A DNA stretch of 33,777 bases, taken from contig PMBG01000090.1 in assembly GCA_003153755.1 (NCBI GenBank), forward strand, positions 1-33,777, given 5' to 3'. This document shows, piece by piece, positions 1,842-33,117 of this stretch (positions are counted from its first letter, which is position 1; the number at the start of each line of letters is the position of its first letter). The notes beneath the pieces are model-generated. The model was given only the letters and a program-made list of their open reading frames with translations, searched no databases and had not been told where the DNA came from. The position numbers and the translations under genes were made by a program. This DNA is from Chloroflexota bacterium (GTDB lineage: Bacteria; Chloroflexota; Limnocylindria; Limnocylindrales; CSP1-4).

Positions 1842-2126
1842 CTAGCGGCGGCCGAAAACGTTACGGCGCCCGCCAAGGCTCTGGTATACGGCGATGACGA
1901 TGATCGCGCCGACGACGGCCACGATGATGCTCGTCAGGTTGATGCCGGTCACGTCGGCGATCTTGAGTACATCTGCGGCCACCCATCCGCCGACGATCGC
2001 GCCGACGATACCGAGGACGACCATCATGAAGAGACCCTCACGGGTGCCCATGAGTTCGCTGGCAACGAAGCCGGCAATCGCGCCGACGACCAGCCAGGCA
2101 AGCAGTGTCATATTGGGAATATCCAC
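1842..2126 (-). CDS. GlsB/YeaQ/YmgE family small membrane protein
   Basis: A 94-residue protein with three hydrophobic helices and the glycine-rich pattern of the transglycosylase-associated (GlsB/YeaQ/YmgE) family: AWLVVGAIAGFVAS near the start, then GIVGAIVGGWVA, and a C-terminal helix ending in basic residues. The length is usual for the family. Members are small inner-membrane proteins linked to general or envelope stress; no biochemical activity is firmly known. The GTG start has AAGGA about 6 nt upstream. A strong terminator follows, so the gene looks monocistronic. Confidence 0.88.
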   Translation of the reverse strand: MDIPNMTLLAWLVVGAIAGFVASELMGTREGLFMMVVLGIVGAIVGGWVAADVLKIADVTGINLTSIIVAVVGAIIVIAVYQSLGGRRNVFGRR

Positions 2127-2306
2127 GGAAGTCCTTCTTTCGAAGCTGTGTGCTTATGCCCGATCAAGCAGGGAGGGCTTGCCCTGGCATTGCACCGTAG
2201 GCTTTCGACGCCGCTCCCGCGAGGATGGAAACCCTGCCGGGGGTCTTTCGGCCGGCCACGCGACACTGGGTTCTTTTCCGCCCGGCCGCCCACCATACTG
2301 TGGAAC

Positions 2307-6315: not shown

Positions 6316-6466
6316 CTGAGCACGAGTCACTGATGACGACCCCAGAACAGGTCTCGCCTGCTGCCGATCTGGCAGTCGGATTACCCGCACGCCGAACTGC
6401 TCCGACGGCAACGGACCGAGCGCACACATAGTCGGCCCACGACACGTGGGCAAGGAGATCAAGCCA

Positions 6467-14674: not shown

Positions 14675-15412
14675 TCAGCCTCGAGTTCGCTCGCGCACTG
14701 CTTCGCGTTCCGAAACTGCAGGCTCACCTTGCGCCAGCGCCACCGGCGCACTCGGCGCGCTCACCGCCGAGGCGGACCCGGAGGGTTCGGGAATGTCGAG
14801 CGACGAACCGCCGAACTTCTCGGCCAGGAACCGACCGTGAGCTTCGAGACGGTCCGTGTCGTGTGCCACTATCGCCTCGGCCACCTCTGACATCTTCTGG
14901 TTCATAAGGTTCAGTTGAGCCAGCAACGTGTCATGAGCGCTCTTCCGACCGCCCAGGCTCCGGTTGGCGTAGAGGCGGGGGAGGGCCAGGTATGCGTTCA
15001 GCGCTTCCGGCAGATACGACAGGGCCGTCTGCCGGATCAGGTAGACGTTCGGATCCACGGCCGCTTGCCCGCTGTTGCCGCCGTTGCCGTTCCCGAGCGT
15101 CACCAAGATGGAGTCGCGGATCTGGCCGACGGTCGCGTAGATGTCGTCCTCCACACGACCCTTGATCGACCTCATGAGCTGGTCGAGGGCGTTCTTGATG
15201 CTCGCCGAATCGCCGGCTCCCGCAAGCGTCAGATCCAGCGCGCGTTCGCCGGGGACCAGAAGCGCGCCGATCAGGTACAAGCCCGCCGTGATCGGAAGCC
15301 ACTCGGTGCCGGGGATCAAGCCGCCGAAGTGAAGCGCCAGGCCTCCCAGCGCGAGCAGGCAGGCGACGATGTTCTTTCGCGAGTAGAGGAACGCCTCCAG
15401 GCGTCGGCTCAC
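14675..15412 (-). CDS. XpaC-like membrane protein of a TelA operon
   Basis: A 245-residue protein with two N-terminal membrane helices (about 14-32 and 38-54), then a helical cytoplasmic region (IKNALDQLMRSIKGRVEDDI, later LLAQLNLMNQKMSEVAEAI) and a disordered Pro/Ser/Ala tail. This layout and its position at the end of a telA operon fit the XpaC (5-bromo-4-chloroindolyl phosphate hydrolysis) family, whose real activity is unknown. The GTG start overlaps the stop of the VWA gene by 4 nt, so translation is coupled. Family assignment rests partly on context. Confidence 0.65.
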   Translation of the reverse strand: MSRRLEAFLYSRKNIVACLLALGGLALHFGGLIPGTEWLPITAGLYLIGALLVPGERALDLTLAGAGDSASIKNALDQLMRSIKGRVEDDIYATVGQIRDSILVTLGNGNGGNSGQAAVDPNVYLIRQTALSYLPEALNAYLALPRLYANRSLGGRKSAHDTLLAQLNLMNQKMSEVAEAIVAHDTDRLEAHGRFLAEKFGGSSLDIPEPSGSASAVSAPSAPVALAQGEPAVSEREAVRERTRG

Positions 15413-17022
15413 TGATAGCCTCTGATCTGTTTGAAGATTTGGTCCAGGGATGTCGTCTTCGCATCGAAGACGGTGCCGCCGGTCAGGGTCGCGATCGACT
15501 TCATATCGCTGACCGCACCCTCGCCAAAGAGTATCGGATAGACATGAACCGCCTGAACGTTGGCGGGCAGGCTCTGATACTTCGACTGTAGGTTGCCATA
15601 GCTGTCGCCGGTGTTGCTCTCTCCGTCGGTCATGAGCACGATCGAGTAGAGCCGGTTGGGGTCGTTCGAGACGCTGGTGCCGACGACCGAGTAGGCACGG
15701 TCGAGGGCGCTGTAGATGGCGGTGGAGCCGCCGGCATCGAGCCCGTCGATGTATTGCCGGATCGCGGACATATCGGGGCCGTTGGGGTTTGTGTCGTCGA
15801 TCGTGAAGGTGCGGACGTCGTTCACGTCGGTCGAGAATGTGATGAACGTCACGTCCTCACGAGCGCGGAAGCGTGAGAACTGCCCGGTCACCGACGTGTC
15901 CAGGCCGGTCAGCTGGGTGAGGGCGTGCTTGAGGTTGTCGAGCCGATCGCCGTTCATGGAGCCCGACAAATCCAGAACGAAGATAGCACTGGCGGGCCGC
16001 CGGACTTGATCGAGGTAGGTGGTGAGCAGCGAGTTGATCGTGTCCAAACGAGATGGGAAGGGAAGCGAGACCAGGGTGGTGGTCGGGAACTTGGGGTCCA
16101 GCGCGACTCCGGGAATCGCCGGGCGGCGATTCGTGTCGGTCATGATCCGGCGCTGCTGCTTGGGGTCCAGGAGCCAGCCCACGACCTTCTGGTACGCGGG
16201 CTGCTTGGCCGAATTCAGCAGCATCAGCGGGTAGTCCGCGGTGAGGATCCCTTCCTTCGGGTACACCAGGGAGAGCTTCTCGGTGAGCTGGCTGCCCGCG
16301 TTGAGCGACATCAGGACGGACTCGTAGTTCACGATTCCGTCGATGTTCGCCTGTTGCCGCACGTAGTCATCCGCAAGAAAGCCCGACGATCCCGCCGTCA
16401 GTACCTGGCCCTTGAAGAAGTCCTTCAGCGCCGCCGTGTCGATCTTGCCGGTGTCGATCGCGTCGGAGCTGCCTGACAGCGCAGTGGCCACGCCGATCAG
16501 CGCCGAAAGCCCGGTGTTGGAGCTGGCCGGGTTCGTCATCGCGAACTTGAACGAGCCGCTCGCCGAGGCCGTCTGGACGTCCTTCCAGGTCACGTCCGGT
16601 CTTCCGGCCCAGTCCAGCCGGGTCGCAACGGACTGCTTCACCCCGATGACAACCGGGCTGAGCATGATCTTGTTGGAGGCGACAACGCGCTTGCCCGCGT
16701 TCGGCAGGAGCTTCAGGTAGTTGCCCAGGCTGAACCAGGCAACGTCGACCTGCTCTCCGCCGTCGATTCGCTCGGCGCCTTCGAGGGTGCCTGAGTAGCT
16801 CAACGACAGCGTGACTCCGGTGGCCGCCCGGAGATCGTCGAGCATCGGCACGATGTCCTTGACCTCGGAGCCGGCCAGCACCGTGAGCGTGTTCGGGTCG
16901 TTGGGATCGACCACGGGAGACGCGCCTGAGCTGTCGCACGCCGTGGCGCTTGCCGCCAGAACTGCGACGGCGGCGATGACGCCTAGCCTGCGTCCGATGT
17001 CCCCCAAATATGGGCGGCGCAT
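15409..17022 (-). CDS. Solute-binding plus VWA-domain lipoprotein
   Basis: A 537-residue exported lipoprotein with lipobox SATAC (Cys29). Residues about 40-330 are a periplasmic-binding-type domain (TLTVLAGSEVKDIVPMLDDL, VDVAWFSLGNYLKLL, ASSNTGLSALIG). The C-terminal 190 residues are a von Willebrand factor A domain with an intact MIDAS: DLSGS, then a Thr within GGSTAIYSAL, then MTDGES. Proteins with this pair of domains are commonly found next to TelA. The VWA domain should bind a protein ligand through a divalent metal; the binding-domain ligand is unknown. The ATG has AGGAGGGG upstream and lies 12 nt after telA. Confidence 0.9.
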   Translation of the reverse strand: MRRPYLGDIGRRLGVIAAVAVLAASATACDSSGASPVVDPNDPNTLTVLAGSEVKDIVPMLDDLRAATGVTLSLSYSGTLEGAERIDGGEQVDVAWFSLGNYLKLLPNAGKRVVASNKIMLSPVVIGVKQSVATRLDWAGRPDVTWKDVQTASASGSFKFAMTNPASSNTGLSALIGVATALSGSSDAIDTGKIDTAALKDFFKGQVLTAGSSGFLADDYVRQQANIDGIVNYESVLMSLNAGSQLTEKLSLVYPKEGILTADYPLMLLNSAKQPAYQKVVGWLLDPKQQRRIMTDTNRRPAIPGVALDPKFPTTTLVSLPFPSRLDTINSLLTTYLDQVRRPASAIFVLDLSGSMNGDRLDNLKHALTQLTGLDTSVTGQFSRFRAREDVTFITFSTDVNDVRTFTIDDTNPNGPDMSAIRQYIDGLDAGGSTAIYSALDRAYSVVGTSVSNDPNRLYSIVLMTDGESNTGDSYGNLQSKYQSLPANVQAVHVYPILFGEGAVSDMKSIATLTGGTVFDAKTTSLDQIFKQIRGYQ

Positions 17023-17034: not shown

Positions 17035-18306
17035 CTACTTCAAACTGAGGCTCGTGCCGTCGCCAGATTGATCGCGCGAGCGAGCGCGATCGAGGTACGT
17101 CTGGGCCTTGCCGATCTGGGTGGACAGCGCGTCGATCGTCTTGCTCATGTTGTCGAGCGCCTTGATCTTGAACGTGTCGATCTCGTCCATCGTGGCGTAG
17201 ATGTTGTCGAATGCCGCCTGCAGCTTCTGCACGTCAATCGTGGAAGAAGCGGCCTGCTCGTTGATCTGAGTCGACTGCTGGCGCAGCAGCACGGACGTGC
17301 TCTCGATCAGGTTGGAGGTCGTGCTGTTGAGGGCTGTGATCTGATCCAGAACGAGCTTCTGGTCGGAGAGCGCCTGCGCGACGATGACCGCGGTGCGAAG
17401 CGCCGAGACGGTTGTGGTCGTGGCCCGGTCCACGCCGCGGATAAGCTCCAGGTTGTTGCGACGGATCACGTCCAGCGCCAGGTAACCCTGCACGCTGACC
17501 GCGAGTTGCGTCGCCAGATCCTGCACCTTCTGCCGAACGGTGAAGAGCATGTCCTCCTTGAGGACTTTGGCCTTGTCGGGGTCGGTGGTCTCGATCTGCG
17601 CGATGCGAGCGGTCAGTCCGGCGTCGAGCTTCTGGGCCAGGTAGATGTACTGGCGCAGCCGTTCCATGATCTGCCAGAGGTTGGCCTTCTCCTGCTCGAT
17701 GTCGGCGTTGTCCTGCTGGAGCGAGTCCTGCCCGTGGTACAGCGCCGTGATGATCGCGTTGATGTGACCCTGGCTTGACTGGTACTTGGCGAAGTAGTCG
17801 CGCAGTCGGTCACCGAACGGCAGTATGCCGAGTATCTTTTTGGGCGAGAGCATGTCGCCCTGATGCGCCGGGTCCAGGTCGTCGATCTGGCGGCGCAGCT
17901 GGACGAGGCTGCTCGATACCGCGGACGAGCCCGAAAGGCCGCCCTTCTGCATGGACGCGACAGGACGATCCAGCAGCCGCGATGAGACCTGGGCCGACGC
18001 CTTGATGTCGTCCTCGCCGAGCTTGCGAATGTCGGTCACTTTGGCGTCGAGCTTGGGGTCGTTGACGTCCAGGCTGGAGATGGCGTCCAGATAGCCGGCC
18101 ACCATGCCGTCGAGCTTCTTGACCGTCTCGGGGTCGAGCTTCACGGCGTCCGTGGCCTGAGTTGGGGCCACAGCAGCGACTGGCGCGGGCGGGGTCAGCG
18201 TCAGCGTGCCGGTCTCGGCCGTCGCGCTCGCGGCCGCGGGCGACGCCGCGCCGGCGGGGGATGCCGCCGGAGCCGAGATGTTGTCGATGTCCAGGGAGTC
18301 GGTCAC
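17035..18306 (-). CDS. telA: TelA-family toxic anion resistance protein
   Basis: A 423-residue, almost fully helical cytoplasmic protein of the TelA/KlaA family. The first 50 residues are an Ala/Pro-rich tail. Family landmarks include FGDRLRDYFAKYQSSQGHIN, LYHGQDSLQQDNADIEQEK, QYIYLAQKLDAGL, VSVQGYLALDVIRRNN and DVQKLQAAFDNIYATMDEID. Members were named for tellurite resistance and are now usually seen as parts of envelope or chemical-stress systems together with VWA and XpaC proteins, as here. The GTG start has GGAGG about 8 nt upstream. It is the second gene of a tight four-gene operon. Confidence 0.92.
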   Translation of the reverse strand: MTDSLDIDNISAPAASPAGAASPAAASATAETGTLTLTPPAPVAAVAPTQATDAVKLDPETVKKLDGMVAGYLDAISSLDVNDPKLDAKVTDIRKLGEDDIKASAQVSSRLLDRPVASMQKGGLSGSSAVSSSLVQLRRQIDDLDPAHQGDMLSPKKILGILPFGDRLRDYFAKYQSSQGHINAIITALYHGQDSLQQDNADIEQEKANLWQIMERLRQYIYLAQKLDAGLTARIAQIETTDPDKAKVLKEDMLFTVRQKVQDLATQLAVSVQGYLALDVIRRNNLELIRGVDRATTTTVSALRTAVIVAQALSDQKLVLDQITALNSTTSNLIESTSVLLRQQSTQINEQAASSTIDVQKLQAAFDNIYATMDEIDTFKIKALDNMSKTIDALSTQIGKAQTYLDRARSRDQSGDGTSLSLK

Positions 18307-20616: not shown

Positions 20617-20659
20617 CTAACGCACCGGAAACACAGCGAACATGAAGCCCTTCTACGGT
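20617..20659 (+). promoter_or_regulatory. Pho-box-like element and candidate promoter of the cohesin gene
   Basis: CTAACGCACCG is followed immediately by GAAACACAGCG, giving AAC-type half-sites 11 bp apart. A TACGGT (-10-like, TAnnnT) sits at 20654-20659, about 20 bp further on. This is the layout of an activator-dependent promoter in which PhoP-type sites replace the -35. The sequence is close to the element in front of the dockerin-PstS gene. Confidence 0.45.
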
Positions 20660-20717
20660 GACTCCCGTATGCGGTCTCTGGGACTCGGTGGGAGTCCCTC
20701 CTTGCCACTGGAGGAGG
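20660..20717 (+). promoter_or_regulatory. Leader with alternative hairpins near the ribosome binding site
   Basis: GGGAGTC at 20690-20696 can pair with GACTCCC (20660-20666). The overlapping GAGTCCC (20692-20698) can instead pair with GGGACTC (20680-20686). CCTCC (20697-20701) can pair with GGAGG of the ribosome binding site (20710-20714). The three pairings are partly exclusive. Whether 20660-20666 is transcribed depends on the true start site. Confidence 0.35.
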
Positions 20718-20725
20718 CATCGTTC

Positions 20726-21565
20726 GTGCACATCCGTCGTAGGAGCGGGATCGTCGCAGCCCTGTCCCTCGCGCTGCTCTCGTTTGTCGTCGTGGGGAAC
20801 GTAGCCGCGGCTGGCAGCGCTACTCTGCGAATTGTCCCCAGTTCGGACACCGTAGCGAAGGGCGCAAACTTCACCGTCCGCGTGGTTCAGAACGCCAGTG
20901 TGCCTACTTCCGGCACCTCGGCGACCGTCACTTTCGACAAGACCAAGGTCCAGGTTCAATCCGTCGAGCGGGGCCAGGCCCACAAGGCGTCGCCGGTCTT
21001 CCTGCCGTCCGACCTGCCGGGTGCAATAGCCGCGGCCAACCGCAGTGGCCAGCTCAAGAGCATCGCCACGGCCTTCCTGCCACCGGACAACGTTCCGACC
21101 GGGGATCAGGACTTTCTCATCATTACCTTCTCCGCGATCGGTTGCGGCCAGGTGAGCTTTGGCCTGCCGATCGGGACGCAGGGAGTGGATGCGGTGCTGA
21201 TCGATGGCACCGAGGCCGGATGGGGCAATCCGGTTCCGGTGACCACGAAAGGGGCAACAGTAAGCATCGACTGCAGCGCGACCGCCCCGACCGAGGCGGC
21301 AGCGACGGACGCGCCGGCAGCGGCAGCCGCGGCAGCCGCTGCCGTCTCCAAAGGCCCGGCTGACACCGCGAATGCGGCGCCCGCCGAAACGGTTGCGGGC
21401 GTGACCGACCCGCCGGTCGTGAACGCTGCGGTCGTCGGGACGAACGGCACTTCGGCCGGATCCGGCGGCAGCCTTCCGCTCTGGCTGCCCCTGCTCCTGG
21501 CGATCCCGGCCCTGCTGCTCATCGGCTTCGTGCTGCTCAAGCGCCCTATCCGCAAACCCGGCTAG
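20726..21565 (+). CDS. Membrane-anchored cohesin-domain protein
   Basis: A 279-residue surface protein: signal peptide (about 1-30, ending VVVGNVAAAG); one cohesin-like domain (about 31-184) starting ATLRIVPSSDTVAKGANFTV with the strand SATVTFDKTKVQVQSVERG and the later DFLIITFSAIGCGQVSFGLP; an Ala-rich linker; and a C-terminal membrane helix (about 250-270) with a basic tail KRPIRK. Cohesins bind dockerins; the only dockerin in the window is in the next gene, so the two products probably interact outside the cell. The GTG start follows GGAGGAGG at 8 nt, and the signal peptide begins there. Confidence 0.85.
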   Translation: MHIRRRSGIVAALSLALLSFVVVGNVAAAGSATLRIVPSSDTVAKGANFTVRVVQNASVPTSGTSATVTFDKTKVQVQSVERGQAHKASPVFLPSDLPGAIAAANRSGQLKSIATAFLPPDNVPTGDQDFLIITFSAIGCGQVSFGLPIGTQGVDAVLIDGTEAGWGNPVPVTTKGATVSIDCSATAPTEAAATDAPAAAAAAAAAVSKGPADTANAAPAETVAGVTDPPVVNAAVVGTNGTSAGSGGSLPLWLPLLLAIPALLLIGFVLLKRPIRKPG

Positions 21566-21765: not shown

Positions 21766-22926
21766 ATGAACATGTTGTCGAAGACCATTCGGACGCTGTC
21801 GGCCATGGTTGGCTCGGCCGTCCTGGTCGCGGGCACGCTTGTAGTGGCCGCCCCGGGCATGGTCGCCGCCGCCGGGCAGTGCCCGATCACCATCAATGAG
21901 CAGGGCTCCACAACCGTGTACCCGGCTCTCATCGCAGCGCAGGCCGGTTTCCAGGCTTCTACCGGCTGCACCATCAACATCGTCGGCAACGGCTCCGGCG
22001 CCGGCCTCACGGCCCTTCTCGCCGGCCAGGTCAACATTGCCGCTTCCTCCCGCCCGCTCAACGCGGGCACCGAGCAGAACAACCTCTACGCGTGGCAGAT
22101 CGGCGGCGACGCCATGGTGCTCGCCGTCCAGAACTCCTCCGCGATGAGCGCGATCAGCTCGATCTCCGTGAACCAGGTTCAGGGCATCTACCAGGGCACG
22201 ATCACGAACTGGAACCAGATCAACGGGTCGTACCCCAGCATGCCCATCGTTCCGCGTTCACGCACGACCGTCTCGGGCAGCTACAGCGATCAGCTGCGGC
22301 TCTTCGGGATCAACACCGGCCTGGAAGCGACCACCATCACCAACACCGGTCTTCCCCGGCTCGCCACGAGCCAGGATGAGGCCGACGCCGCCTGCAACAA
22401 CGCGGGCCAGGTTGTCTATACCAGCCTCGCCAACCTCCTGACGTTCGGCCCCGCCGGCTCCGGTTGCCTCAAGGCGCTCTCGCTTGCAGCGGGCAGCACC
22501 TCGAACTTCGTCGCACCGAGCGTGACCAGCGTCCAGAACGGGACGTACCCCGCCCCGCGCCAGCTCTTCCTCGCCATGCAGAAGTGGGCCGTCCTCGGCG
22601 GCACCGCCACGACTGACACCTCGGCCAACGTGAAGGCCATGGACCTCGTCAACTACATGCTCAGCACCGCCGGTCAGACCACGGTCGCGCAGGTCGGGTT
22701 CGTGAACGCTGCCGTCCCGGCAGCGCAGCCGGTCCTCGACTACGACGTGAACCTCGACGGCGCCATCAGCCTGGGCGACCTGGGCAACATCACCGGCCGC
22801 TGGGGCCAGACCTCTCCCTGCAACGGCTGGATCCGTGCCGACGTGAACAACGACGGCGGCGTCGGTCTCGCCGACATCGGCAGGGTCACCGCGCATTGGG
22901 GCCAGGTGGGCTTCGTCGCCCCGTAG
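21766..22926 (+). CDS. PstS-like phosphate-binding protein with a C-terminal dockerin
   Basis: A 386-residue secreted protein. Residues 1-37 are a signal peptide without a lipobox. Residues 38-320 are a PstS-type binding domain: NEQGSTTVYPALI, IVGNGSGAGLTALLAGQV, SSRPLN, QGIYQGTITNWNQING, VPRSRTTVSG. The C-terminal 60 residues form a dockerin with two calcium-binding F-hand repeats, DVNLDGAISLGDLGNITGRW (327-346) and DVNNDGGVGLADIGRVTAHW (359-378). A PstS normally carries a lipid anchor in cells without an outer membrane; here the dockerin seems to replace it, binding a cohesin. It is the first gene of the pst operon, which includes a cohesin-PstC. The ATG has GAGGAA at 10 nt; an ATG two codons later is also possible. 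Confidence 0.9.
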   Translation: MNMLSKTIRTLSAMVGSAVLVAGTLVVAAPGMVAAAGQCPITINEQGSTTVYPALIAAQAGFQASTGCTINIVGNGSGAGLTALLAGQVNIAASSRPLNAGTEQNNLYAWQIGGDAMVLAVQNSSAMSAISSISVNQVQGIYQGTITNWNQINGSYPSMPIVPRSRTTVSGSYSDQLRLFGINTGLEATTITNTGLPRLATSQDEADAACNNAGQVVYTSLANLLTFGPAGSGCLKALSLAAGSTSNFVAPSVTSVQNGTYPAPRQLFLAMQKWAVLGGTATTDTSANVKAMDLVNYMLSTAGQTTVAQVGFVNAAVPAAQPVLDYDVNLDGAISLGDLGNITGRWGQTSPCNGWIRADVNNDGGVGLADIGRVTAHWGQVGFVAP

Positions 22927-22970
22927 GCTCGCTGATCAACTGTCCTAGGGAATAAGTGAGGAGTAAGACA

Positions 22971-24020
22971 GTGAATCGCACTCGCACCAAGCTGGCCGCT
23001 CTCGGCATGGGCGCCCTGCTGACAATCGGCGCGCTCGTGCTCCCGATGTCGGCTTTCGCGGCCGGTAACTCGATCTCGGTCAGCCCGTCGACCACGACGG
23101 TCTCGCCCGCCGGCAGCATCGGCAGCACCTTCTCCGTCAACGTCACCGCCAACGGCACCGTTGCCATCAGCGGCGCCGGGGCGGCCCTCAACTTCGACAA
23201 GACCCGCCTCCAGGTGACCGCCCTCGCCAAGGACGCAACTGAGGTCGCCAACGGCGTCTCTTACGCCGGCTTCCCCACCGCCGCGACGACCGCCACCTTC
23301 ATCGCCAACGCCAACGCGGCCGGCCAGATCCCCACAATCGCTTGGACGTACACCGACGGCGCGAGCGCCGAGACCGCCGGCGTTGAGCACGGCATCTTCA
23401 GCGTGACCTTCCAGGTCATCGCTGTCGGCAACAGCAGCATCGATCCCATCATCGGCCTCGGCGGCCTTCTTGACGGCACCTCCGCCAACTACGGCGCATC
23501 GCTTTCTTCGATCTCGCTGAACAGCGGCGTGGTCTCCAACCCCGCGCCGACCGCGACGCCGGTTGCCACCCCGACGCCGGTTGCCACTCCGACCCCGGTT
23601 CCGGCTTCGGCTCCCCCCGGCTCGGGCACGACCAACGTCAACGGCACCCTCGACTCCGGCTTCCTGGGCCTCACCGTCCCGGCCAACGTCACGATCCCGC
23701 TCGTTCGGAACGCGACCAACACGAAGGACGTTCAGGTCACCGTGTTCAGCAACATCATGTGGAACCTGCAGGTCAGTGACCCCAAGGCCACGCACACCGG
23801 CTTCATGACCGACGGCGTCAAGGTTCTCTCGAACCCGATGCACGTCCTCGCGGCGCCGACCGCCGACGCCAACCTGTCCAACCCCACCACCCCCAACACC
23901 ATCGTCTCAGGCTCGAACAGCGCCAACGTCATCTCGACGCTGAGCCAGTTCGTGGCCTCGACGGACCAGCCCGGCTCCTACGGGATCCAGATCCTGTACT
24001 CGGCCGTATCCGGGTTCTAG
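22971..24020 (+). CDS. Cohesin-like protein with a C-terminal WxL-like domain
   Basis: A 349-residue secreted protein: signal peptide 1-31; a cohesin-like domain (about 32-190) with ISGAGAALNFDKTRLQVTAL and GIFSVTFQVIAVGNSSI; a PVATPTPVATPTPV linker (about 191-215); and a C-terminal beta domain (about 220-349) containing WNL at residue 264 and the ending QPGSYGIQILYSAVSGF, which resembles WxL cell-wall-binding domains. It has no membrane helix, so the WxL-like domain is probably the surface attachment. The cohesin part resembles the first cohesin of the triple-cohesin protein (both contain GVSYAGFP). The GTG start has GAGGAG at 7 nt, only 44 bp after the dockerin-PstS gene. Confidence 0.8.
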   Translation: MNRTRTKLAALGMGALLTIGALVLPMSAFAAGNSISVSPSTTTVSPAGSIGSTFSVNVTANGTVAISGAGAALNFDKTRLQVTALAKDATEVANGVSYAGFPTAATTATFIANANAAGQIPTIAWTYTDGASAETAGVEHGIFSVTFQVIAVGNSSIDPIIGLGGLLDGTSANYGASLSSISLNSGVVSNPAPTATPVATPTPVATPTPVPASAPPGSGTTNVNGTLDSGFLGLTVPANVTIPLVRNATNTKDVQVTVFSNIMWNLQVSDPKATHTGFMTDGVKVLSNPMHVLAAPTADANLSNPTTPNTIVSGSNSANVISTLSQFVASTDQPGSYGIQILYSAVSGF

Positions 24021-24038
24021 ACCCGAAACGTTGACCCC

Positions 24039-24068
24039 GAGGGGGGTGGCCGTAAGACCACCCCCCTC
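24039..24068 (+). terminator. Strong hairpin inside the pst operon
   Basis: An 11-bp perfect stem (GAGGGGGGTGG and its complement) with an 8-nt loop is followed by CTCTCTT. It lies between the WxL-like and DUF916-like genes. It may act as a partial terminator, or protect the upstream mRNA, making the secreted genes more abundant than the permease genes. Confidence 0.7.
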
Positions 24069-24090
24069 CTCTCTTGACGGAAGGCGACGG

Positions 24091-25161
24091 ATGCACTCTC
24101 ACCTCGGACGAACTGTTCGTGCACTCCTGTTCGGAGCCTTGCTCGTGCTGGGGCAGGCCGGCATCTCGGCCGCGGCGTCGCCCTCGACCCCGCAGGCGTC
24201 CCCGACCGTGCAGATACCAGTGGACAAGGGGGCCCTGAACGTTACGCCCCCCGTGATCAGCCTGGCAGCTACGCCCGGTGCTTCGACCACCGCCGAGCTG
24301 ACGGTGCGCTCCGCCGCTCTCCAGGACGTGAAAGTCGTGGCCGCTGGATTGGGCCAGACGACGGATGGCGGCTTCCAGCCCATCGAGGCCGCGCAGGACG
24401 CGAGCCCCTATTCCGCCCGATCGATGATCACGGTCAGTCCTCAAAGCTTCCGGATGCAGCCCGGCGACTCCCAGATTGTCAAGGTAACCGTCAACGTCCC
24501 TACCGGCGCCGGCGATGGCACCCGCTACGCCATCCTCAAGATCACCAGCACGCCCGTCTCCGGCACGGAGAACGTCGGCTTCGGCACCGAGCTTGGCGTT
24601 AGCTCGCTGATCACCCTGACCAACACCAGCCAGACGAAGACGGGCTCCATCAGGGCCCTCGCCGTCGGCAAGCCGGTCGCGGGCCAACCCCTGGTCGTGA
24701 CCGGGACGATCGTGAACACGGGCAACTCCCACTACGGAGCCACGCCCAACCCGGTGAACGCCATCGCCACTCTGACCAACGCAAACGGCGACGTCGTGAC
24801 CAGCGGCAAGACCGTCCTCACCGGGAACTCGATCGTGCCCACCTTCGGCCGTCAGTTCTCGATCTCCCTCAGGGCGGGCAACGGCCTGAGCGACGGCAAG
24901 TACCGTCTCGCGGCCGAGGCGGCCCTGCAGGATGGCACCGTCCTGGACCAGAAGTCGCTCGATTTCACGATCTCAGGTGGTGAGGTTGTTCTTGGGGCAA
25001 CCGCGGCGACGTCCGGCAACGGGCCAGCCGGCAATGGAAACTCCGACAGCGGGGGGATGCTTGTACTGATACTCGGTGCGTTCACCGCTGCCCTGCTCGT
25101 TCTCGTCGTGATCAACGTGCTGATCTACCGCCGTCGCCAGAACCGCCCGGCCGCGGAGTGA
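24091..25161 (+). CDS. DUF916-like membrane-anchored surface protein
   Basis: A 356-residue protein: signal peptide (about 1-29), a beta-sandwich region with VTPPVISLAATPGASTTAEL and the line ITVSPQSFRMQPGDSQIVKV typical of DUF916/PapD-like domains (about 46-170), a second Ig-like domain (about 190-315) with VVTGTIVNTGNSHYG, a Gly/Ser linker and a C-terminal helix (about 321-343) ending YRRRQNR inside the cell. DUF916-type proteins normally accompany WxL proteins and help hold them at the peptidoglycan; the upstream gene has a WxL-like domain, so the pair may work together. The ATG has GGAAGG at 6 nt. Confidence 0.75.
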   Translation: MHSHLGRTVRALLFGALLVLGQAGISAAASPSTPQASPTVQIPVDKGALNVTPPVISLAATPGASTTAELTVRSAALQDVKVVAAGLGQTTDGGFQPIEAAQDASPYSARSMITVSPQSFRMQPGDSQIVKVTVNVPTGAGDGTRYAILKITSTPVSGTENVGFGTELGVSSLITLTNTSQTKTGSIRALAVGKPVAGQPLVVTGTIVNTGNSHYGATPNPVNAIATLTNANGDVVTSGKTVLTGNSIVPTFGRQFSISLRAGNGLSDGKYRLAAEAALQDGTVLDQKSLDFTISGGEVVLGATAATSGNGPAGNGNSDSGGMLVLILGAFTAALLVLVVINVLIYRRRQNRPAAE

Positions 25162-25186
25162 TCCTACCGGCAAGGAGAGCGCGGCC

Positions 25187-27454
25187 TTGGACCTGAACAA
25201 GAGCGTCGGCTGGCTGCCGCACCGTCGCATACGGCTGGCGTCCGCGGCGCGTGGCCTGCTTGCCGTGGCGTTCGCGGTGACGACCCTCCTTGGCGTCAAC
25301 GGCACGGCATCCGCTGCGTCCGGGGCCACGATGAAGGTGAGCCCGTCGGTCTCGAGCATTGCCGGCGGCACGACTTTCACCGTCGATATCGTCGAGAGCG
25401 CGAGCGTCGGCACTATCGGCGCGAACGCGACCCTCACGTTCGACCCAACTCTGGTCCAGGTCACCGGCATGAAGGCAGGGCCCGCATATGGCAAGGGCCT
25501 CTCTTTCTTCGGCATCTCATTCGATGGTTCAACCGAGAAGGCGGGGGCCGCCGCGACCAAGGCAAACCAGACCGGGACCGTGGTCTTCGAGGCCTCGGGC
25601 ATCATTCCGGCGGGTGATGCCACGGTCGTCACCATGACGATGGAGGCCGTCAAGGGTCCGGGCGGCAAGGCGAGTCTCAGTCTCCGCGCCCCGTCTCTGC
25701 TCGATCAGGACGGTAACGCCCTGCCCATCACCGGCACGAACGGCGCCGTGACGGTCGCGCCGACGCCTGGAGTGACCGCCCCTCCGAAGCCTTCGGGCCT
25801 GGTGGACGCCAGTGCGCTACCCGACTCCGCCGTGATGACCTTGATCCCCGAGCGCCCCCAGGTGGCCGTCGGCGAATCCGTGACCGTCGAAGTCAAGATC
25901 GCCACCACCAGCACTCAGATCGGGCTGATCAAGGCATCCCTCGCATTCGACAGCTCGTTGCTTCAGGTCCAGAAGGTCGAAGCTGGGCCTCTTGTGAAGG
26001 GAGCGACGCTTCAGTCCGGTCTCACAACGATCGCGGCTGGTATCGACCTGGCGAATTCGAGCGGCAAGCTGAACGAAGTCCGGATCACCGTACCGTCCGG
26101 AGCGGACTCGCAGGGGATGGATGGCACCGTCCTGATAATCACCCTGAAGGGCGTCGCCAACGGAACCTCCACGCTTGACCTGGGCGCGGGACTGGAGACG
26201 CCCGATGCCGGATCCATCCCGGTCGTCGCACAGCCGTCGCAGCTCGTCGTGGGCTCCGGTGGCACGCAGCCGGACGCCGGCACAACCGGCACCGACTCGA
26301 ACGGCGGAGGGGGCGGGGGTGCCGACCCCTTGTTCGTCGCGCTCGCCGCGATCCTGACCCTGCTGGCGCTTGGGGACTTGATCATCCTCGTGTTGCCTCG
26401 GCGCGCCGGGAGGCAGCGGCTCTCGCTGCGCCGATGGCCGTTCGTCGTCTCGCTTGCACTTGGGCTCATCCCAGTGCTCATGTTCGCCGGAATTGTTGTG
26501 ATCGTCGTTATCAACGCCTTGCCGGCGGTTGGCGACCCGGGTCTTGGATCGCTTCTCGGCGACAAGTTCATCTACCAGTTCTCCGGCCAGGGCACGCAGG
26601 GCAATTGGACGTGGGGCCTGCTGCCAGCTCTGTGGGGAACTGTCGAGATCACGCTTGTGGCGGTTCTCGTGGCCCTGCCGGTGTCTCTCGCCATGGCGGT
26701 CGTCTCCACGGAATTCCCCATGGGCCCAGTCGGACGAGTGGTCCGGCCACTCGTAAGCATGCTGTCGGGCATCCCGCCGATCGTCTACGCCGTCTCGCTC
26801 CTTGTCTTCGTCCACCTATTCATGATCCCCAAGTTCGCCGCCAACTCGTCCTTCAACGCGTTGAAGTTGGATCCGACGACGATTGGGGCGAACGCCGCGA
26901 CGTGGCCGCCGTCGGGCGTGCCCTTCGACCCAGGGTCGTATCCGTGGGGAACCACGATGGTCGGCGGCAATAGCGTCCTGCTCGGCGGGATCCTGGTGGC
27001 GCTACTACTCGTTCCGTTCATGACCCCCATGATCGCGGACGCGATCCGGAACGTTCCGACGTCGGCCCGCGAAGCCTCATTGGCCTTGGGAGCCAACCGG
27101 GCCTACACCCTGCGCCGGGCCATCCTGCCGATGGCAGTGCCGGGAATGATCACGGCCGTTGTACTCGGCACGCTCAAGGCAATCGGCGACATCGTGATCG
27201 TGTCCCTGGCCGTCGGGTGGGAAGCCAACTCGATTCCCAATCCGGTGTTCGACGTACTCGAGAAGACCCCGTCGCTCGCCGCGCAGGGAGCGAACATGAT
27301 CACGCCCTTCAATACGCCCGGAGGCGGCCCTTCGGTGCAGCCGGCGGCGTCGATTGGGTTCCTGACCGCCCTGCTCTTCCTGCTTGCCGCCGCCGCCATG
27401 GTCCTTCTGATGAACTACTTGAAGGCGCGCTGGCGCCGGAGGCTGGGCGCATGA
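25187..27454 (+). CDS. pstC: PstC phosphate permease with two N-terminal cohesin-like domains
   Basis: A 755-residue fusion. Residues 1-45 are a signal-like helix. Cohesin-like domain 1 covers about 46-191 (ATMKVSPSVSSIAGGTTFTV, ANATLTFDPTLVQVTGMKAG) and domain 2 about 214-354 (VMTLIPERPQVAVGESVTVE, KASLAFDSSLLQVQKVEAG). After a Gly/Asp linker a membrane helix (about 381-403) leads to a basic loop RRAGRQRLSLRR and the PstC core (about 415-755): ALWGTVEITLVAVLVALPVS, LSGIPPIVYAVSLLVF and the EAA loop EASLALGANRAYTLRRAILP (629-648) that contacts PstB. Positive-inside charges put the cohesins outside. Ordinary PstC is about 300-340 residues with no such domains. The TTG start has AAGGAG at 9 nt. 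The stop overlaps the start of pstA (ATGA). Confidence 0.92.
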   Translation: MDLNKSVGWLPHRRIRLASAARGLLAVAFAVTTLLGVNGTASAASGATMKVSPSVSSIAGGTTFTVDIVESASVGTIGANATLTFDPTLVQVTGMKAGPAYGKGLSFFGISFDGSTEKAGAAATKANQTGTVVFEASGIIPAGDATVVTMTMEAVKGPGGKASLSLRAPSLLDQDGNALPITGTNGAVTVAPTPGVTAPPKPSGLVDASALPDSAVMTLIPERPQVAVGESVTVEVKIATTSTQIGLIKASLAFDSSLLQVQKVEAGPLVKGATLQSGLTTIAAGIDLANSSGKLNEVRITVPSGADSQGMDGTVLIITLKGVANGTSTLDLGAGLETPDAGSIPVVAQPSQLVVGSGGTQPDAGTTGTDSNGGGGGGADPLFVALAAILTLLALGDLIILVLPRRAGRQRLSLRRWPFVVSLALGLIPVLMFAGIVVIVVINALPAVGDPGLGSLLGDKFIYQFSGQGTQGNWTWGLLPALWGTVEITLVAVLVALPVSLAMAVVSTEFPMGPVGRVVRPLVSMLSGIPPIVYAVSLLVFVHLFMIPKFAANSSFNALKLDPTTIGANAATWPPSGVPFDPGSYPWGTTMVGGNSVLLGGILVALLLVPFMTPMIADAIRNVPTSAREASLALGANRAYTLRRAILPMAVPGMITAVVLGTLKAIGDIVIVSLAVGWEANSIPNPVFDVLEKTPSLAAQGANMITPFNTPGGGPSVQPAASIGFLTALLFLLAAAAMVLLMNYLKARWRRRLGA

Positions 27455-28839
27455 CCGACTCGGTTGGGAGCATGACGGACGCCGTTGGTCGCACGAGCGA
27501 CGCCGACGGACATGGACTGATGTCGCGAATCGCGGACAATCTCGCCGGGCGGGAGCGAGTGACGCTCGGCCTCCCTCTCGCTGCGGCCGCGATCTGTGCC
27601 GCGGTGGGGCTTGGTGCCCTCTTCTTCAACGGAGTCGACGCCGCATCGTTGCCGGCGATGGGCCTGCTTGGCGCTTGCCAGCTCACAGCCGTCGCGACCA
27701 CTTATAGACGGACCGCGAGCCTGGACCGGCGGGCGACCCTGCTACTGGTGCTCTGCATTGCGGCAACCCTGGTCCTGTTCGTGGCCCCAGAGTGGATGTA
27801 TGGCTGGAACATAAACGGAATCATCCACCACTCCGTGCTGTCGGTGCCGCTCCTGCTGCTCATGTCAACGGCAACTGCCGCACATTCCGTGAGGGCACTG
27901 ATGGGCGCGTCTCCGAGCGGGCGCGATCTCTCACTGTATCCGTGGCTCATCCTCCCGATTGCCCTCGCCTTGATCGCCTACGGAATCCTCGTCGGAGACA
28001 TCGTTGCCTCCGGAATCGGCGGTTTGAATTTGAATCTGCTCACGACGGTTGGGGCGTCGGCGGGCAACGGATACGTGCCGGGATTCCTCAACAACATCCT
28101 GGGCACGTTCCTGCTGATGTTCATGACTCTCGTCATCGCGTTCCTGCCGGGCGTCGGAGCGGGCGTGTTCATGGCCGAGTATCCGGGGCGATTGGCCGGG
28201 TTGATCGACTTCTGCACGCAGATGCTTCGAGCGGTCTCGATGTTCGTGATCGGAGCTGCTGCCTTCGGACTCGTGCATCTCCTGAGCTCCTGGAAGGCCG
28301 ACGACCTGCTGTCCCAACTGGTGCGGGGTTCCTACTCGGATTCGAGCGGCCAGACCCTTCCGGAGCACGGGTCATTTCTGTTCGCCGCCGTGATTCTCGG
28401 CCTCCTGGTGATGCCGGTGATTGCGAAGCTGACGGAGGAAGGGCTGCGCTCCGTGCCGAGGGAGATTCGAGAAGGCTCGATCGCGCTGGGCGCTACGGAG
28501 GGCCATGGATTGCGGCGGATCCTTCTTCCGTGGGCCGCGCCCAACATCCTGACGGGCCTCGTGCTCGCGGCGGCGGAAGCGAACGGGAGCCTGGCGGTGC
28601 TCGTATTCCTCGGCGTGATCGGCGAACACGGCGTGGGCCCCTTGAGCGGCGTGACCACACTGGACTACTCCATCTTCGAGATCAGCTGGGGGCCGATGCA
28701 GTACACCAGGGTGATGGAGCAGTACCGGCTTACGGCCGCCCTCGTACTGCTCCTCCTGACGATGGGGCTCACCGTCCTCGCCATGCTCCTCCAGCGACGC
28801 TTCGCGACGCGCTATCGCGGCTCGCTGACTTCCAACTAA
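27451..28839 (+). CDS. pstA: PstA phosphate permease with an N-terminal extension
   Basis: A 462-residue membrane protein. The PstA core (about 165-462) has AYGILVGDIVASGIGGLNLN, TFLLMFMTLVIAFLPGVGAG, GVFMAEYPGRLAGLIDF and the EAA loop REGSIALGATEGHGLRRILL that contacts the ATPase. Normal PstA is about 280-300 residues. Here about 160 additional N-terminal residues carry roughly four extra hydrophobic helices (near 37-55, 60-80, 92-112 and 125-143). The start codon overlaps the pstC stop, with GGAGG 8 nt upstream, so translation is coupled. Together with PstC it forms the channel of the phosphate ABC importer. Confidence 0.9.
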   Translation: MTDSVGSMTDAVGRTSDADGHGLMSRIADNLAGRERVTLGLPLAAAAICAAVGLGALFFNGVDAASLPAMGLLGACQLTAVATTYRRTASLDRRATLLLVLCIAATLVLFVAPEWMYGWNINGIIHHSVLSVPLLLLMSTATAAHSVRALMGASPSGRDLSLYPWLILPIALALIAYGILVGDIVASGIGGLNLNLLTTVGASAGNGYVPGFLNNILGTFLLMFMTLVIAFLPGVGAGVFMAEYPGRLAGLIDFCTQMLRAVSMFVIGAAAFGLVHLLSSWKADDLLSQLVRGSYSDSSGQTLPEHGSFLFAAVILGLLVMPVIAKLTEEGLRSVPREIREGSIALGATEGHGLRRILLPWAAPNILTGLVLAAAEANGSLAVLVFLGVIGEHGVGPLSGVTTLDYSIFEISWGPMQYTRVMEQYRLTAALVLLLLTMGLTVLAMLLQRRFATRYRGSLTSN

Positions 28840-28890
28840 GGGGCCCCCAAAGGGCTTGCCCGGACAGGTCATGAACTCGGAGGTTTGCTC

Positions 28891-29694
28891 GTGGAGACCA
28901 TCGAAGTAGCCAACGTCATGGAGACCGAAGGGCTTCGCATCTCCTACGGGAAGCGCGAAGTGCTCAAAGGCGTTTGGGTGCCCATAGCCAAGGGCAAGGT
29001 CACGGCAATCGTCGGCCCATCCGGCTGCGGCAAGACCACGCTCCTGCGAAGCCTCAACCGGCTCACCGACTTGAACTCGAACTGCAAGGTGCAGGGACGG
29101 ATCACTCTGGACGGCGACAACTGCGTCTCGATGGATCCGGTTCTGCTGCGCAGACGTGTAGGCATGGTGTTCCAGAAGCCGAACCCGTTCCCGATGTCTA
29201 TCCGCGACAACGTGCTGTACGGCGTGCAAGCCCAGGGAATGAGCAAGGAAGGCCATGACGACATCGTGGAGTCCAGCCTGCGAAAAGCCGTCATCTGGGA
29301 CGAGGTGAAGGATCGGCTGGGCCATAGCGCCTTGGAACTCTCCGGTGGCCAGCAGCAGCGTGTATGTATAGCCCGGACGCTCGCGGTGAACCCTGAAGTC
29401 GTGCTCATGGACGAGCCGGCCGGTTCTCTCGATCCTCGTTCCACGCTGCTCCTCGAGGAGAGCATCATGGAGATGCGAGGCCAATACACGGTTGTGATCG
29501 TCACCCACGACGTACCCGAGGCCCGTCGCATCTCGGACTTCATAGCGTTCATGTACGAAGGCCGACTCGTGGAGTTCGGTGAGACAGAGCAGCTGTTCAG
29601 TGCGCCTCGTGAAGAAGCGACTCGCGACTACCTGGCCGGCGGGCTCGTGACGGTGGCGCCGGTTGCCCGGGAGGATGAAGCGCCGGCCGCGTAG
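28891..29694 (+). CDS. pstB: PstB phosphate ABC transporter ATP-binding protein
   Basis: A 267-residue ATPase of the usual PstB length. Walker A is GPSGCGKTT (42-50), Q-loop FQKPNPFPMS (94-103) as typical for PstB, signature LSGGQQQR (150-157), Walker B VVLMDEPAGSLDP (170-182), and H-loop VTHD (204-207). It energises phosphate import through PstC and PstA at the inner face of the membrane. The GTG start is preferred to a TTG two codons earlier because GGAGG is 7 nt from the GTG and only 1 nt from the TTG. No phoU follows; the gene is convergent with the triple-cohesin gene. Confidence 0.95.
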   Translation: METIEVANVMETEGLRISYGKREVLKGVWVPIAKGKVTAIVGPSGCGKTTLLRSLNRLTDLNSNCKVQGRITLDGDNCVSMDPVLLRRRVGMVFQKPNPFPMSIRDNVLYGVQAQGMSKEGHDDIVESSLRKAVIWDEVKDRLGHSALELSGGQQQRVCIARTLAVNPEVVLMDEPAGSLDPRSTLLLEESIMEMRGQYTVVIVTHDVPEARRISDFIAFMYEGRLVEFGETEQLFSAPREEATRDYLAGGLVTVAPVAREDEAPAA

Positions 29695-29856: not shown

Positions 29857-32103
29857 CTAGGCGCGGAGTGGCCCTTCGCTCTTACCTGATCCCGAGCCGG
29901 TCGTCGGAGAGACCCAACCGCGTACGAGTCCGGGGAGACCGTAGCGGCGGAGCGCCAGGAGGGCCAGTGCCCAGGCGTATACCGGAATCAGGAGCAGCAT
30001 GCCGAACGTCGATCCGTTGTCGCCGGCGACTGCAGCGCCCAAAGCCGCGTTTGGAGTCTGTGCCGCTGCGTGAGTTCGCGCCGGCGCGGCCGCCGCGATG
30101 ACGGTCGCTTCAGGCGTATCGGTAGGTGCCTCCACGGCAACCGTTAGTGGAGTTGCCGCGGCTGGCCTGTATACGGCGCGAACGGGCGCGCGGGTCGGCG
30201 TGTGCGTTGGAGTGGGCGTTGGGGTTGGAGTCGGGGTTGGAGTCGGCGTGGGCGTCGGCGTCGGCGTGGCGTAGCTGCATGCGATCGTCACGGATCCCCC
30301 GGTAGCCGAGAGTGGCATCTTGTTGCCGTACAGGATGTCGTTGTCGTTGATGTTGGGGCGCCCGTCGTTCATGAGCGCGTCGAAGGGGCCCACCGGGAGG
30401 CTCAGTTCGGACTGGCCGCATGCGATCGCCTTGAACGTGACGTTGAGGAACACCTCATCCCCCGCGGGGAGGGAGTCGTACGCATTGAAGTTGGCGCCTA
30501 CGGTCGCCAGCTTGCCGCTGGCGTTGGCAGACGAGATGTTGTTGGTACGCCAGCCTACATAGGTAGGGGCAGTTGCCCAGTTCGGGCCCCTGGTAATCGA
30601 GTCGACCTGGAGCAAGGTATGGTCGAAGACCAGGCTCGCCTCGACGCCGCTCACCAGAGTGGAGGCGTGCTCCTTGATCTGAACGGTGAAGTAGCCGTTG
30701 ATAGCCGCCGCGCTGGGATGCGCCGGCTCCAGCCAGAGGTAGTTGGGCTCCTGCGGGGCGGCGCTCGAGCTGTCCGAGGGAGTCGGCGTTGGGCTGCCGC
30801 TCGGGGCGTCTGTCGCGCTCAGGACGGACTCTGACGGCGTCGGTGATGGTGCCGGCGAGCACGCGACGTCGAATGAGATTCCTGCGGCGGACACGGGCAG
30901 CGTATTGCCATACACGATGTGGTTGTCGTCGACGTTTGGTCGCCCGTCGACCATGTACGCGTCGAGCGGCCCCACCGGCAGACCCAGGTCGGCCCGCCCG
31001 CACGAGATGGCCTGGAAGGTGACGTTGACAAAGACCTGATCGCCCGGCGCCACGTTGGCGGGCTGCATGAATGCGGCACCAACGGTGCCGAGCCGCCCGG
31101 AGCCGTTTGCCGTGGCGATCTTTGCCGAATTGGCTCCAAGGAACCAGGGCGCCTCTTCCCAGGCCGTGCCCCTGGTCACGGACGTGATCTGAAGCAGGCC
31201 CTTGTCATAGGTAAGGCCCACCTGCACGCCGCTTACGGGAACGGACGCGTGCTCCACGATCTGAACGGTGAACGTGCCGCCTGCGGCCGCGCCGGTTGGA
31301 GGCACGATCGAGAAGTTGTTTGCAGCCGGAGGGGGCGTCGGGCTCGGCGTGGGCGTCGCGACGGGCGTCGGCGTGGCGACTGGCGTCGGCGTGGCGCATG
31401 GATCCGGAGTAGTCGAGGGGGTCGCGGTCGATGCCGGCGTTGCGGTAGACGTTGAGACCGCGGTTGGGCACGGAGTCGGCGTGGGGCATGGGTTCGTGAT
31501 GACGCCGCTCACGAGAGAGTTGACCGGCAGCGGATCGCCGTATGTGGTCGGTGGCGTGCTCGGTCCATAGAATCCGGTGCCGTCCAGTAACCCGCCGATT
31601 CGGTCAACCACCAGTCCCAGCGTGGAGTTGCCGCAGGCGATGACCTGGAACGTGGCATTGAAGATCCCGGCGTTCGTTCCCGCGGCGATGGCCCCGCCGT
31701 ACGTCGTGGCGTCGCCATCGGCGAAGCTCCAGGCTATCGTGGGGATCGTGCCTGTCGAGTTCGCGCTGGTGAGGAATGCAGCCAGGCTCGAAGCACCGGG
31801 GAAGCCCGCGTAGCTGACACCCAGGGCGACGACGTCGGCCGCCCTGGCCACGCCGGTCAGCTTCAGACGGTTCTTGTCGAAGGTCACGCCGACGCCCGCG
31901 CCGCTGAGAGGTTTCGTGGCGTTGGCCTGCACCGACACAGTGAAGGTGCTGCCGTTGGTGGTGACTTGAGAGTCGATGCTGATCGTGTTGCCGGACGCGA
32001 ACACCGGTTGTCCCAGGCTCAGACCGCCCAACGCCAGTAGAGTCCCAAGGGCAAGCGCCAATGACCTCATTCTGTACCGGCGAGGTCGCTGGGTCGGAAT
32101 CAC
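29857..32103 (-). CDS. Triple-cohesin, membrane-anchored scaffold protein
   Basis: A 748-residue surface protein: signal peptide (about 1-37), three cohesin-like domains (about 38-205, 264-412 and 455-600), separated by Thr/Pro linkers (including PVATPTPVATPTPSP, the same style as in the pst-operon cohesin), a long TPTPTP stretch, an Ala-rich segment and a C-terminal helix (about 700-725) followed by a polar tail. Domains 2 and 3 are close to each other (FTVQIVEHASVPVSGVQVGL versus FTVQIKEHASTLVSGVEASL), while domain 1 resembles the pst-operon cohesin (GVSYAGFP). It could hold several dockerin-bearing proteins at once, like a small scaffoldin. The GTG start has AGGAGGAG at about 5 nt. It lies 105 bp downstream of the lipoprotein pstS, with its own candidate promoter between. 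Confidence 0.88.
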   Translation of the reverse strand: MIPTQRPRRYRMRSLALALGTLLALGGLSLGQPVFASGNTISIDSQVTTNGSTFTVSVQANATKPLSGAGVGVTFDKNRLKLTGVARAADVVALGVSYAGFPGASSLAAFLTSANSTGTIPTIAWSFADGDATTYGGAIAAGTNAGIFNATFQVIACGNSTLGLVVDRIGGLLDGTGFYGPSTPPTTYGDPLPVNSLVSGVITNPCPTPTPCPTAVSTSTATPASTATPSTTPDPCATPTPVATPTPVATPTPSPTPPPAANNFSIVPPTGAAAGGTFTVQIVEHASVPVSGVQVGLTYDKGLLQITSVTRGTAWEEAPWFLGANSAKIATANGSGRLGTVGAAFMQPANVAPGDQVFVNVTFQAISCGRADLGLPVGPLDAYMVDGRPNVDDNHIVYGNTLPVSAAGISFDVACSPAPSPTPSESVLSATDAPSGSPTPTPSDSSSAAPQEPNYLWLEPAHPSAAAINGYFTVQIKEHASTLVSGVEASLVFDHTLLQVDSITRGPNWATAPTYVGWRTNNISSANASGKLATVGANFNAYDSLPAGDEVFLNVTFKAIACGQSELSLPVGPFDALMNDGRPNINDNDILYGNKMPLSATGGSVTIACSYATPTPTPTPTPTPTPTPTPTPTHTPTRAPVRAVYRPAAATPLTVAVEAPTDTPEATVIAAAAPARTHAAAQTPNAALGAAVAGDNGSTFGMLLLIPVYAWALALLALRRYGLPGLVRGWVSPTTGSGSGKSEGPLRA
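30195..30270 (-). repeat. Thr-Pro-coding minisatellite
   Basis: About a dozen 6-bp units (GGCGTC, GGGGTT, GGAGTC and similar on the plus strand) encode the uninterrupted Thr-Pro linker of the triple-cohesin protein. A shorter, similar tract is near 31345-31400. Such hexamer runs can change length in frame. Confidence 0.8.
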
Positions 32104-32208: not shown

Positions 32209-33117
32209 CTACCTGGCGACCGGGGCGTACGAGAGGCTGGGGATGAGGCCGTTCTGAACGTCCGGACTCATCATGTAGTCGAGGAAGGCGGCCGTCAGAC
32301 CCGTGGGCTGGCCGAGCGTATACATATGGCCGTCCGCCGAAAGCTTGTACGTGCCGGCTGTCATGTTCGGGACGGTCGCGTCGGAACCGTCGAGCTGGAG
32401 GCCGTTGAGCTTCCCCTTGTTCGCCGGATCGTTGTAGTACGCGAAGCCGATGACGCTCATGGCGCCGCTGGTCTTCGTCACGGCCGTAGTGACCGCACCG
32501 TTGGAGTCTTCGGTCAGGATCTGGCCGCTGGTGGTTTCGTTCAGTCCGCCGAGCACGATCTTCTTGAAAGTCGCGCGGGTGCCGGACGAGGCGGGCCGGA
32601 AGATGAGGATGATCGGCTCGTCGGGACCACCGACGTCTTTCCAGTTGGTGATCTTGCCGGTCCAGATGTCGACGTGCTGCTGGGTGGTCAGGTTCTTGAC
32701 GGTGACGTCGGGGTTGGTGACCACGATCCAGCCTTGCTTGGCGACGATGTGGTCGATGAGCTTGTTGGCGTCCGGAGTCGCCAGCTTGCTGTCGGCGGTG
32801 ACGTCAGACTCGCCAATCTGGACTGCGCCCTGGGAGACCTGACTGAGGCCGGTGCCGGAGCCACCGCCGTTGACGATGATGTTGGCACCGGGGCACGCCG
32901 CGACGTACTGCTTCGCGGCCGCGTCGATGAGCGGCTGAAGGGCCGTGGAGCCGGCGGTCGTGATCGTGCCGGTCTGGCAGTTGAGCGCGCCGGGGGCTAA
33001 GGAAGCCTTGGGCGTCGTGGCGGCGCTCGATGGCGAAGCTGTTGATGAGCCGCATCCCGAAGCCAGCACCACTACCGCGACCACGATCGCGACGAGACTG
33101 CCCTTGCCTTTGAGCAC
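32209..33117 (-). CDS. pstS: PstS phosphate-binding lipoprotein
   Basis: A 302-residue exported protein with lipobox VLASGC (Cys22), then a Ser/Ala/Pro linker and a complete PstS domain: TITTAGSTALQPLIDAAAKQ, VNGGGSGTGLSQVSQGAVQI, GESDV, QQHVDIWTGKITNWKDVGG, IFRPASSGTRATFKK and the C-terminal TAAFLDYMMSPDVQ. It binds phosphate at the cell surface and delivers it to PstC/PstA. Unlike the second PstS of this window it has a lipid anchor and no dockerin. The GTG start has AGAGGAG about 8 nt upstream. Confidence 0.93.
   Translation of the reverse strand: MLKGKGSLVAIVVAVVVLASGCGSSTASPSSAATTPKASLAPGALNCQTGTITTAGSTALQPLIDAAAKQYVAACPGANIIVNGGGSGTGLSQVSQGAVQIGESDVTADSKLATPDANKLIDHIVAKQGWIVVTNPDVTVKNLTTQQHVDIWTGKITNWKDVGGPDEPIILIFRPASSGTRATFKKIVLGGLNETTSGQILTEDSNGAVTTAVTKTSGAMSVIGFAYYNDPANKGKLNGLQLDGSDATVPNMTAGTYKLSADGHMYTLGQPTGLTAAFLDYMMSPDVQNGLIPSLSYAPVAR

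Follow-up and report, generated by a model that had tools for sequence, protein, structure and literature searches.

How could a solute-binding protein be held at its importer when it has no lipobox? The question is raised by a Pst-type operon in a 33,777-nucleotide stretch of Chloroflexota DNA (the window), in which PstS ends in a dockerin and PstC carries two cohesins. The window is part of a 59,768-base contig from a metagenome bin of 3.3 Mb, which is 69% complete. On the plus strand, the genes are arranged in the order cohesin-TM, PstS-dockerin, cohesin plus WxL-like protein, WxLIP-like protein with a membrane helix, cohesin-cohesin-PstC, PstA and PstB (Table 1); from PstS-dockerin through PstB, the gaps between the genes are 45 bases or less. 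After PstB, the minus strand encodes a three-cohesin membrane protein, followed by a PstS with a lipobox. No tRNA or Rfam matches were found in the window. The same locus set is present in three related genomes, G043, G016 (92% complete) and G046, and its core is present in G204 and G640. G204 is a closed genome of one contig (1.7 Mb, 99% complete), all others are incomplete metagenome bins.

Table 1. Features of the pst-cohesin locus. Local profiles contain the sequences of this locus, so their E-values are not independent.
Feature	Position	Strand	Details
Secreted cohesin with C-terminal membrane helix (cohesin-TM)	20642..21565	+	cohesin 20816-21277; TM 280-298 (hydropathy)
PstS-type binding protein, signal peptide, C-terminal dockerin, without lipobox	21766..22926	+	386 aa; PBP_like_2, Dockerin_1
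Dockerin	22726..22914	+	Ca loops DVNLDGAISLGD (22744-22779) and DVNNDGGVGLAD (22840-22875), read from sequence
Secreted cohesin protein with WxL-like C-terminal domain	22956..24020	+	cohesin 23067-23549; invariant Trp
WxLIP-like surface protein with C-terminal membrane helix	24031..25161	+	TM 343-361 (hydropathy); orthologs in G204, G640
Signal peptide, cohesin 1, cohesin 2, extra TM helix, PstC permease	25187..27454	+	Pfam, TIGR02138, AlphaFold2
PstC cohesin 1	25325..25762	+	local profile 7.5e-36; Pfam 22.7 bits; fold Z 16.3
PstC cohesin 2	25829..26257	+	local profile 2.3e-33; Pfam 33.7 bits; fold Z 15.3
Extra membrane helix of PstC fusion, residues 384-402, then basic loop RRAGRQRLSLRR	26336..26392	+	hydropathy
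PstA-like permease	27451..28839	+	TIGR00974 8.9e-37; ATGA overlap with PstC stop, start read from sequence
PstB-like ATPase	28885..29694	+	TIGR00972 334 bits
Membrane protein with three cohesins (31483-31986, 30856-31320, 30274-30744)	29857..32103	-	Pfam Cohesin 8.5e-17; local profile; TM 700-718
Separate PstS, lipobox at Cys22, without dockerin	32209..33117	-	TIGR02136 214.5 bits (cut-off 206.6)

The PstS-dockerin protein matches PBP_like_2 with an E-value of 2.5e-24. Its residues 326–373 match Dockerin_1 near the cut-off of 22.9 bits, with 19.6 bits in hmmscan (E 0.0011) and 23.4 bits in the genome scan; the local dockerin profile, which contains this very sequence, gives an E-value of 6.5e-29. 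The relatives in G204, G016 and G640 exceed the Dockerin_1 cut-off in the genome scan, and the G640 relative reaches 34.6 bits. The dockerins of the window, G016 and G640 are composed of two F-hand repeats with all calcium ligands (D-x-N/D-x-D...D). As judged by the PROSITE PS51257 pattern, the lipobox is absent from the PstS-dockerin proteins of the window, G016, G046 and G204, and is present in the separate, non-dockerin PstS of the window, G016 and G046. Both the two-repeat dockerin at the end of PstS and the missing lipobox had been claimed in the initial annotation, and both are borne out by these results. The G043 protein passes a loose lipobox pattern; the same Cys is kept in close relatives, in which the pattern fails. 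A lipobox at this N-terminal Cys was ruled out, since three of the four close relatives have Gln or Thr at position -1. The Cys may instead pair with a second conserved Cys.

The cohesin-PstC protein matches BPD_transp_1 (1e-15) and, over two stretches, Pfam Cohesin (1e-10; 42.4 bits, cut-off 24.1). AlphaFold2 modeling of residues 43–375 with a 28-row alignment gave two domains, with block-mean pLDDT mostly 78–96, and both domains show the jelly-roll fold of cohesins, matching solved structures (Z values in Table 1). The best Foldseek match to this model is the cohesin dyad 3l8q (E 1e-16), and the PDB sequences nearest to cohesin 2 are the C. cellulolyticum cohesins 1g1k and 2vn5 (E 0.002). 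A similar fold is also found in an adhesin (9ifr). According to hydropathy, the signal peptide and the cohesins are followed by the extra helix, the basic loop and then the permease helices; such a layout places the cohesins outside the membrane. The proposal that PstC carries two cohesin-like domains outside the membrane thus agrees with profile, predicted fold and topology, and profile and fold together identify both domains as cohesins. Chance or an assembly error behind the fusion was ruled out, because the same fusion occurs in four genomes.

Further cohesins are encoded on both sides of PstC. The cohesin-TM protein gives an E-value of 2e-53 with the local profile, which contains this sequence, and 18.1 bits with Pfam Cohesin, below the cut-off; its G016 ortholog reaches 24.2 bits, above the 24.1 cut-off. 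It precedes PstS-dockerin in the same order in four of four genomes (window, G043, G016 and G046). The cohesin of the WxL-like protein was missed by Pfam in the window and detected by the local, non-independent profile (1.1e-39), and its G043 ortholog scored 24.6 bits in the genome scan. In the G016 ortholog, the N-terminal domain was missed by Pfam and is a cohesin by predicted fold (Z 15.0). The C-terminal domain resembles WxL by motif alone, and the Pfam WxL profile did not match the window protein. WxLIP_PGBD matched four of the six orthologs of the WxLIP-like protein, all below threshold (best E 0.055). With Pfam scores below threshold, membership in the WxL and WxLIP families was not accepted, and the names are retained as a likeness. 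The three-cohesin membrane protein scores 62.1 bits with Pfam Cohesin (cut-off 24.1). A cohesin plus WxL-like protein was also observed on a short contig in G041 (L019:22-1362), a bin of 84% completeness in which PstS-dockerin was not found.

Using Pfam and the local profiles, we counted the cohesins and dockerins of each genome. The window genome (69% complete) has one dockerin and seven cohesins, all inside the window: one on cohesin-TM, one on the WxL-like protein, two on PstC and three on the minus-strand membrane protein. The numbers of dockerins and cohesins are one and five in G016, two and seven in G046, one and seven in G043, and one and three in G204. In these five genomes, they are always on or beside PBP-dockerin or Pst proteins. 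In G043, a second contig carries two of the seven cohesins, adjoining the lipobox PstS of this genome; in G204, the sole dockerin is on PstS and the cohesins are confined to the pst operon. G640 has further dockerins beyond that of PstS. In a survey of the class, PstS with this dockerin was found in 4 of 177 genomes and cohesins in 5, including all 4, an association that exceeds chance. In a survey of the phylum, 251 of 400 genomes have a PstS-like match; three of the listed matches extend into the dockerin, and all three genomes have cohesins in the same operon. The expected co-occurrence of dockerin-PstS with same-locus cohesins is therefore seen in every case, four of four in the class and three of three listed in the phylum. 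Because the cohesins and the dockerin make up a closed set within the locus, their pairing is the natural reading. A cellulosome was ruled out, as PstS carries the only dockerin found in the 69% complete window genome, and the 99% complete G204 agrees. Beside its pst-cohesin locus, G046 encodes a second PBP-dockerin protein (L042:7465-9765), with an N-terminal β-propeller (SBBP repeats). In family f10 of the same phylum (L077, L078, L079, L080 and L081), cohesin plus dockerin proteins are located near an ABC ATPase gene, and two ATPase stretches are present in four of the five loci.

In type I dockerins, the residues at loop positions 10 and 11 contact the cohesin. In repeats 1 and 2, respectively, these positions are LG and LG in G016, LG and LA in the window, MA and MA in G640, and VL and VL in G204. 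They are similar between the repeats inside a lineage and different across lineages, a pattern compatible with matched pairs that would have two binding modes. The G043 dockerin (L017:7944-9119) has lost calcium ligands in both repeats, and positions 10 and 11 stay LG and LA. Compared to the other positions, of which 10 of 58 were changed, the calcium-ligand positions were changed in 6 of 8 (Fisher p 0.0018). The dN and dS values are 0.14 and 0.48 for this dockerin and 0.15 and 0.57 for the PBP part. Since the changes sit on the ligands and the rates resemble those of the PBP part, the domain is not simply decaying, and it is possibly a calcium-free variant. In one of the two G046 dockerins, repeat 2 has lost ligands. 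We also modeled the G016 PstS dockerin together with the cohesin encoded by the following gene, as one frame in which the two intervening stops were read as Ser; this joining is a modeling device and makes no claim about the organism. AlphaFold2 gave block means of ∼85–88 for the dockerin core and mostly 89–97 for the cohesin, but a pTM of only 0.62, values that score the folds only.

The operons of G204 and G640 point to a possible origin of the fusion. G204 is grouped in a class other than that of the window, and the operons of both genomes are diverged. In both genomes, the core contains PstS-dockerin, the WxL-like and WxLIP-like proteins, cohesin-TM, PstC and PstA, with PstB in G204; cohesin-TM is a separate gene upstream of a PstC without cohesin, and in G640 the two reading frames overlap where that of PstC starts. 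Because cohesin-TM is separate and just upstream of PstC there, the fusion of the window clade looks like a join of neighboring genes. The locus-linked PstC of all six genomes group in a single clade (100/99) separate from canonical PstC, in a tree in which long branches meet. Besides G204 and G640, no further cohesin-bearing pst operons were found among the phylum cohesin loci examined. At the expected place of PstB, G640 has transposase- and integrase-like genes (L146:1854-3909, read from sequence).

Given these observations, the locus probably encodes an accessory Pst-type importer, the secreted PstS of which is docked through its dockerin on cohesins of the permease and of other surface anchors. 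PstS would be secreted by means of a cleaved signal peptide, carrying its C-terminal dockerin and no lipid anchor. The dockerin would plug into the two cohesins on the PstC arm outside the membrane, and the same dockerin would also plug into the single cohesins of cohesin-TM and the putatively wall-associated WxL-like protein, and into the three cohesins of the second membrane protein. This binding would presumably depend on calcium. PstS would thereby gather around its own permease and dock on it, and would have additional sites in the wall zone. The initial annotation had PstS tethered to its own permease. The closed set of cohesins and dockerin supports a tether of this kind, but the claim is too narrow: the genomes of the window clade have five to seven cohesins each, spread over a number of surface proteins among which the permease would be just one place of anchoring, and two other lineages have no cohesin on PstC. 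We somewhat favor a picture in which cohesin sockets on the permease snap-fit a dockerin-tipped PstS, within a dedicated surface array that includes wall and membrane scaffolds and instead of a lipid anchor or a covalent fusion.

PstS might instead dock mainly on the scaffold-like proteins of the wall zone (cohesin-TM, the three-cohesin-TM protein and cohesin-WxL), which would act as a capture layer, with the PstC cohesins serving another purpose or retaining the permease within that layer. Five of the seven cohesins in the window are carried by proteins other than PstC, the PstC of G204 and G640 is without any cohesin, and the cohesins of PstC change more quickly than its permease part (55% versus 70% identity to G043), all of which favor such a layer. 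However, no dockerin besides that of PstS was found in the 92% complete G016, so the cohesins that PstC retains in four genomes would have no other known partner, and we consider the capture layer unlikely. Less probable still is a reading in which the cohesin-like domains serve adhesion, the dockerin is a vestige, and the importer works in the ordinary way with a PstS that is soluble or has some other anchor. The loss of calcium ligands from the G043 dockerin and from one repeat in G046 could be read in this way, as could the similar fold of the adhesin 9ifr, but the G043 changes concentrate on the ligands while dN and dS match those of the PBP part, and dockerin-PstS was found only alongside cohesins in the class and phylum surveys.

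A different doubt concerns the substrate and is compatible with docking on permease and surface anchors. Compared to the TIGR cut-offs, the scores are 106 versus 206.6 bits for PstS-dockerin, 128.8 versus 196 for PstC, 127 versus 193 for PstA and 334 versus 343 for PstB; none of the four subunits reaches the curated cut-off. Each of the six genomes has a canonical PstC above the cut-off at another place, and the locus is thus a second, diverged Pst-like system. That the tethered importer carries another anion is possible, if doubtful: the low scores of PstS, PstC and PstA and the canonical PstC elsewhere speak for it, but PstB scores 334 bits to the PstB family, and GSTT, GxGxG and SG are kept in the alignment of the six PstS-dockerin proteins. 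These motifs align with the phosphate site as defined in E. coli PstS. The annotated phosphate uptake is thus suggested by family only, for a diverged Pst-like system (PstC 129 versus 196 bits) in a genome with a canonical PstC elsewhere.

In a literature search, for which subscription papers were mostly out of reach, no cohesin-bearing permease and no dockerin-PstS were found reported. The ABC importers GlnPQ and OpuA have their binding domain covalently fused to the permease. Like them, the locus would keep the binding protein at the permease; different from them, the plug would be separable and non-covalent, if the binding holds. Compared to canonical PstSCAB, the binding protein, the two permeases and the ATPase are all present, with a PstB-like ATPase close to its family, but a dockerin is found instead of the lipobox, and PstC has two cohesins, an extra helix and a separate clade. 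With type I cellulosomes (1ohz, 2vn5), the locus shares both folds, the two-repeat calcium-loop dockerin and several cohesins per dockerin type. Different from cellulosomes, the window is without a glycosidase, the cargo is a solute-binding protein, and the cohesins are on the permease and small anchors. ANME archaea have dockerins on ABC binding proteins of the NikA/OppA and TroA types, together with multi-cohesin proteins in the genome and no cellulose degradation (Chadwick et al. 2022, PMC9012536), which resembles our locus; however, these are archaea, and the section that describes them mentions no permease cohesin, no pst genes and no single self-contained operon. As in Gram-positive WxL/WxLIP clusters (PMC10599100), a WxL-like domain adjoins a surface protein with a C-terminal helix, but here the Pfam matches are below threshold and the genes are linked to a pst operon and cohesins. 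If true, docking would add a third means, next to lipid anchors and fusions, by which ABC importers keep their binding proteins close, and it would assign a concrete function to cohesin-dockerin pairs outside cellulosomes. With one dockerin and three to seven cohesins at one locus, these operons are natural small systems for binding tests, and they include dockerins apparently lacking calcium sites.

Other genes of the window were noted as well. On the minus strand (15409–17022 and 17035–18306), a solute-binding domain fused to a VWA domain adjoins a TelA-family gene. A CheB-CheR-PAS-histidine kinase fusion of 1288 aa is located at 1719–5585, and an ice-binding protein (PF11999, 5.8e-73) at 6446–7453 suggests a cold habitat.
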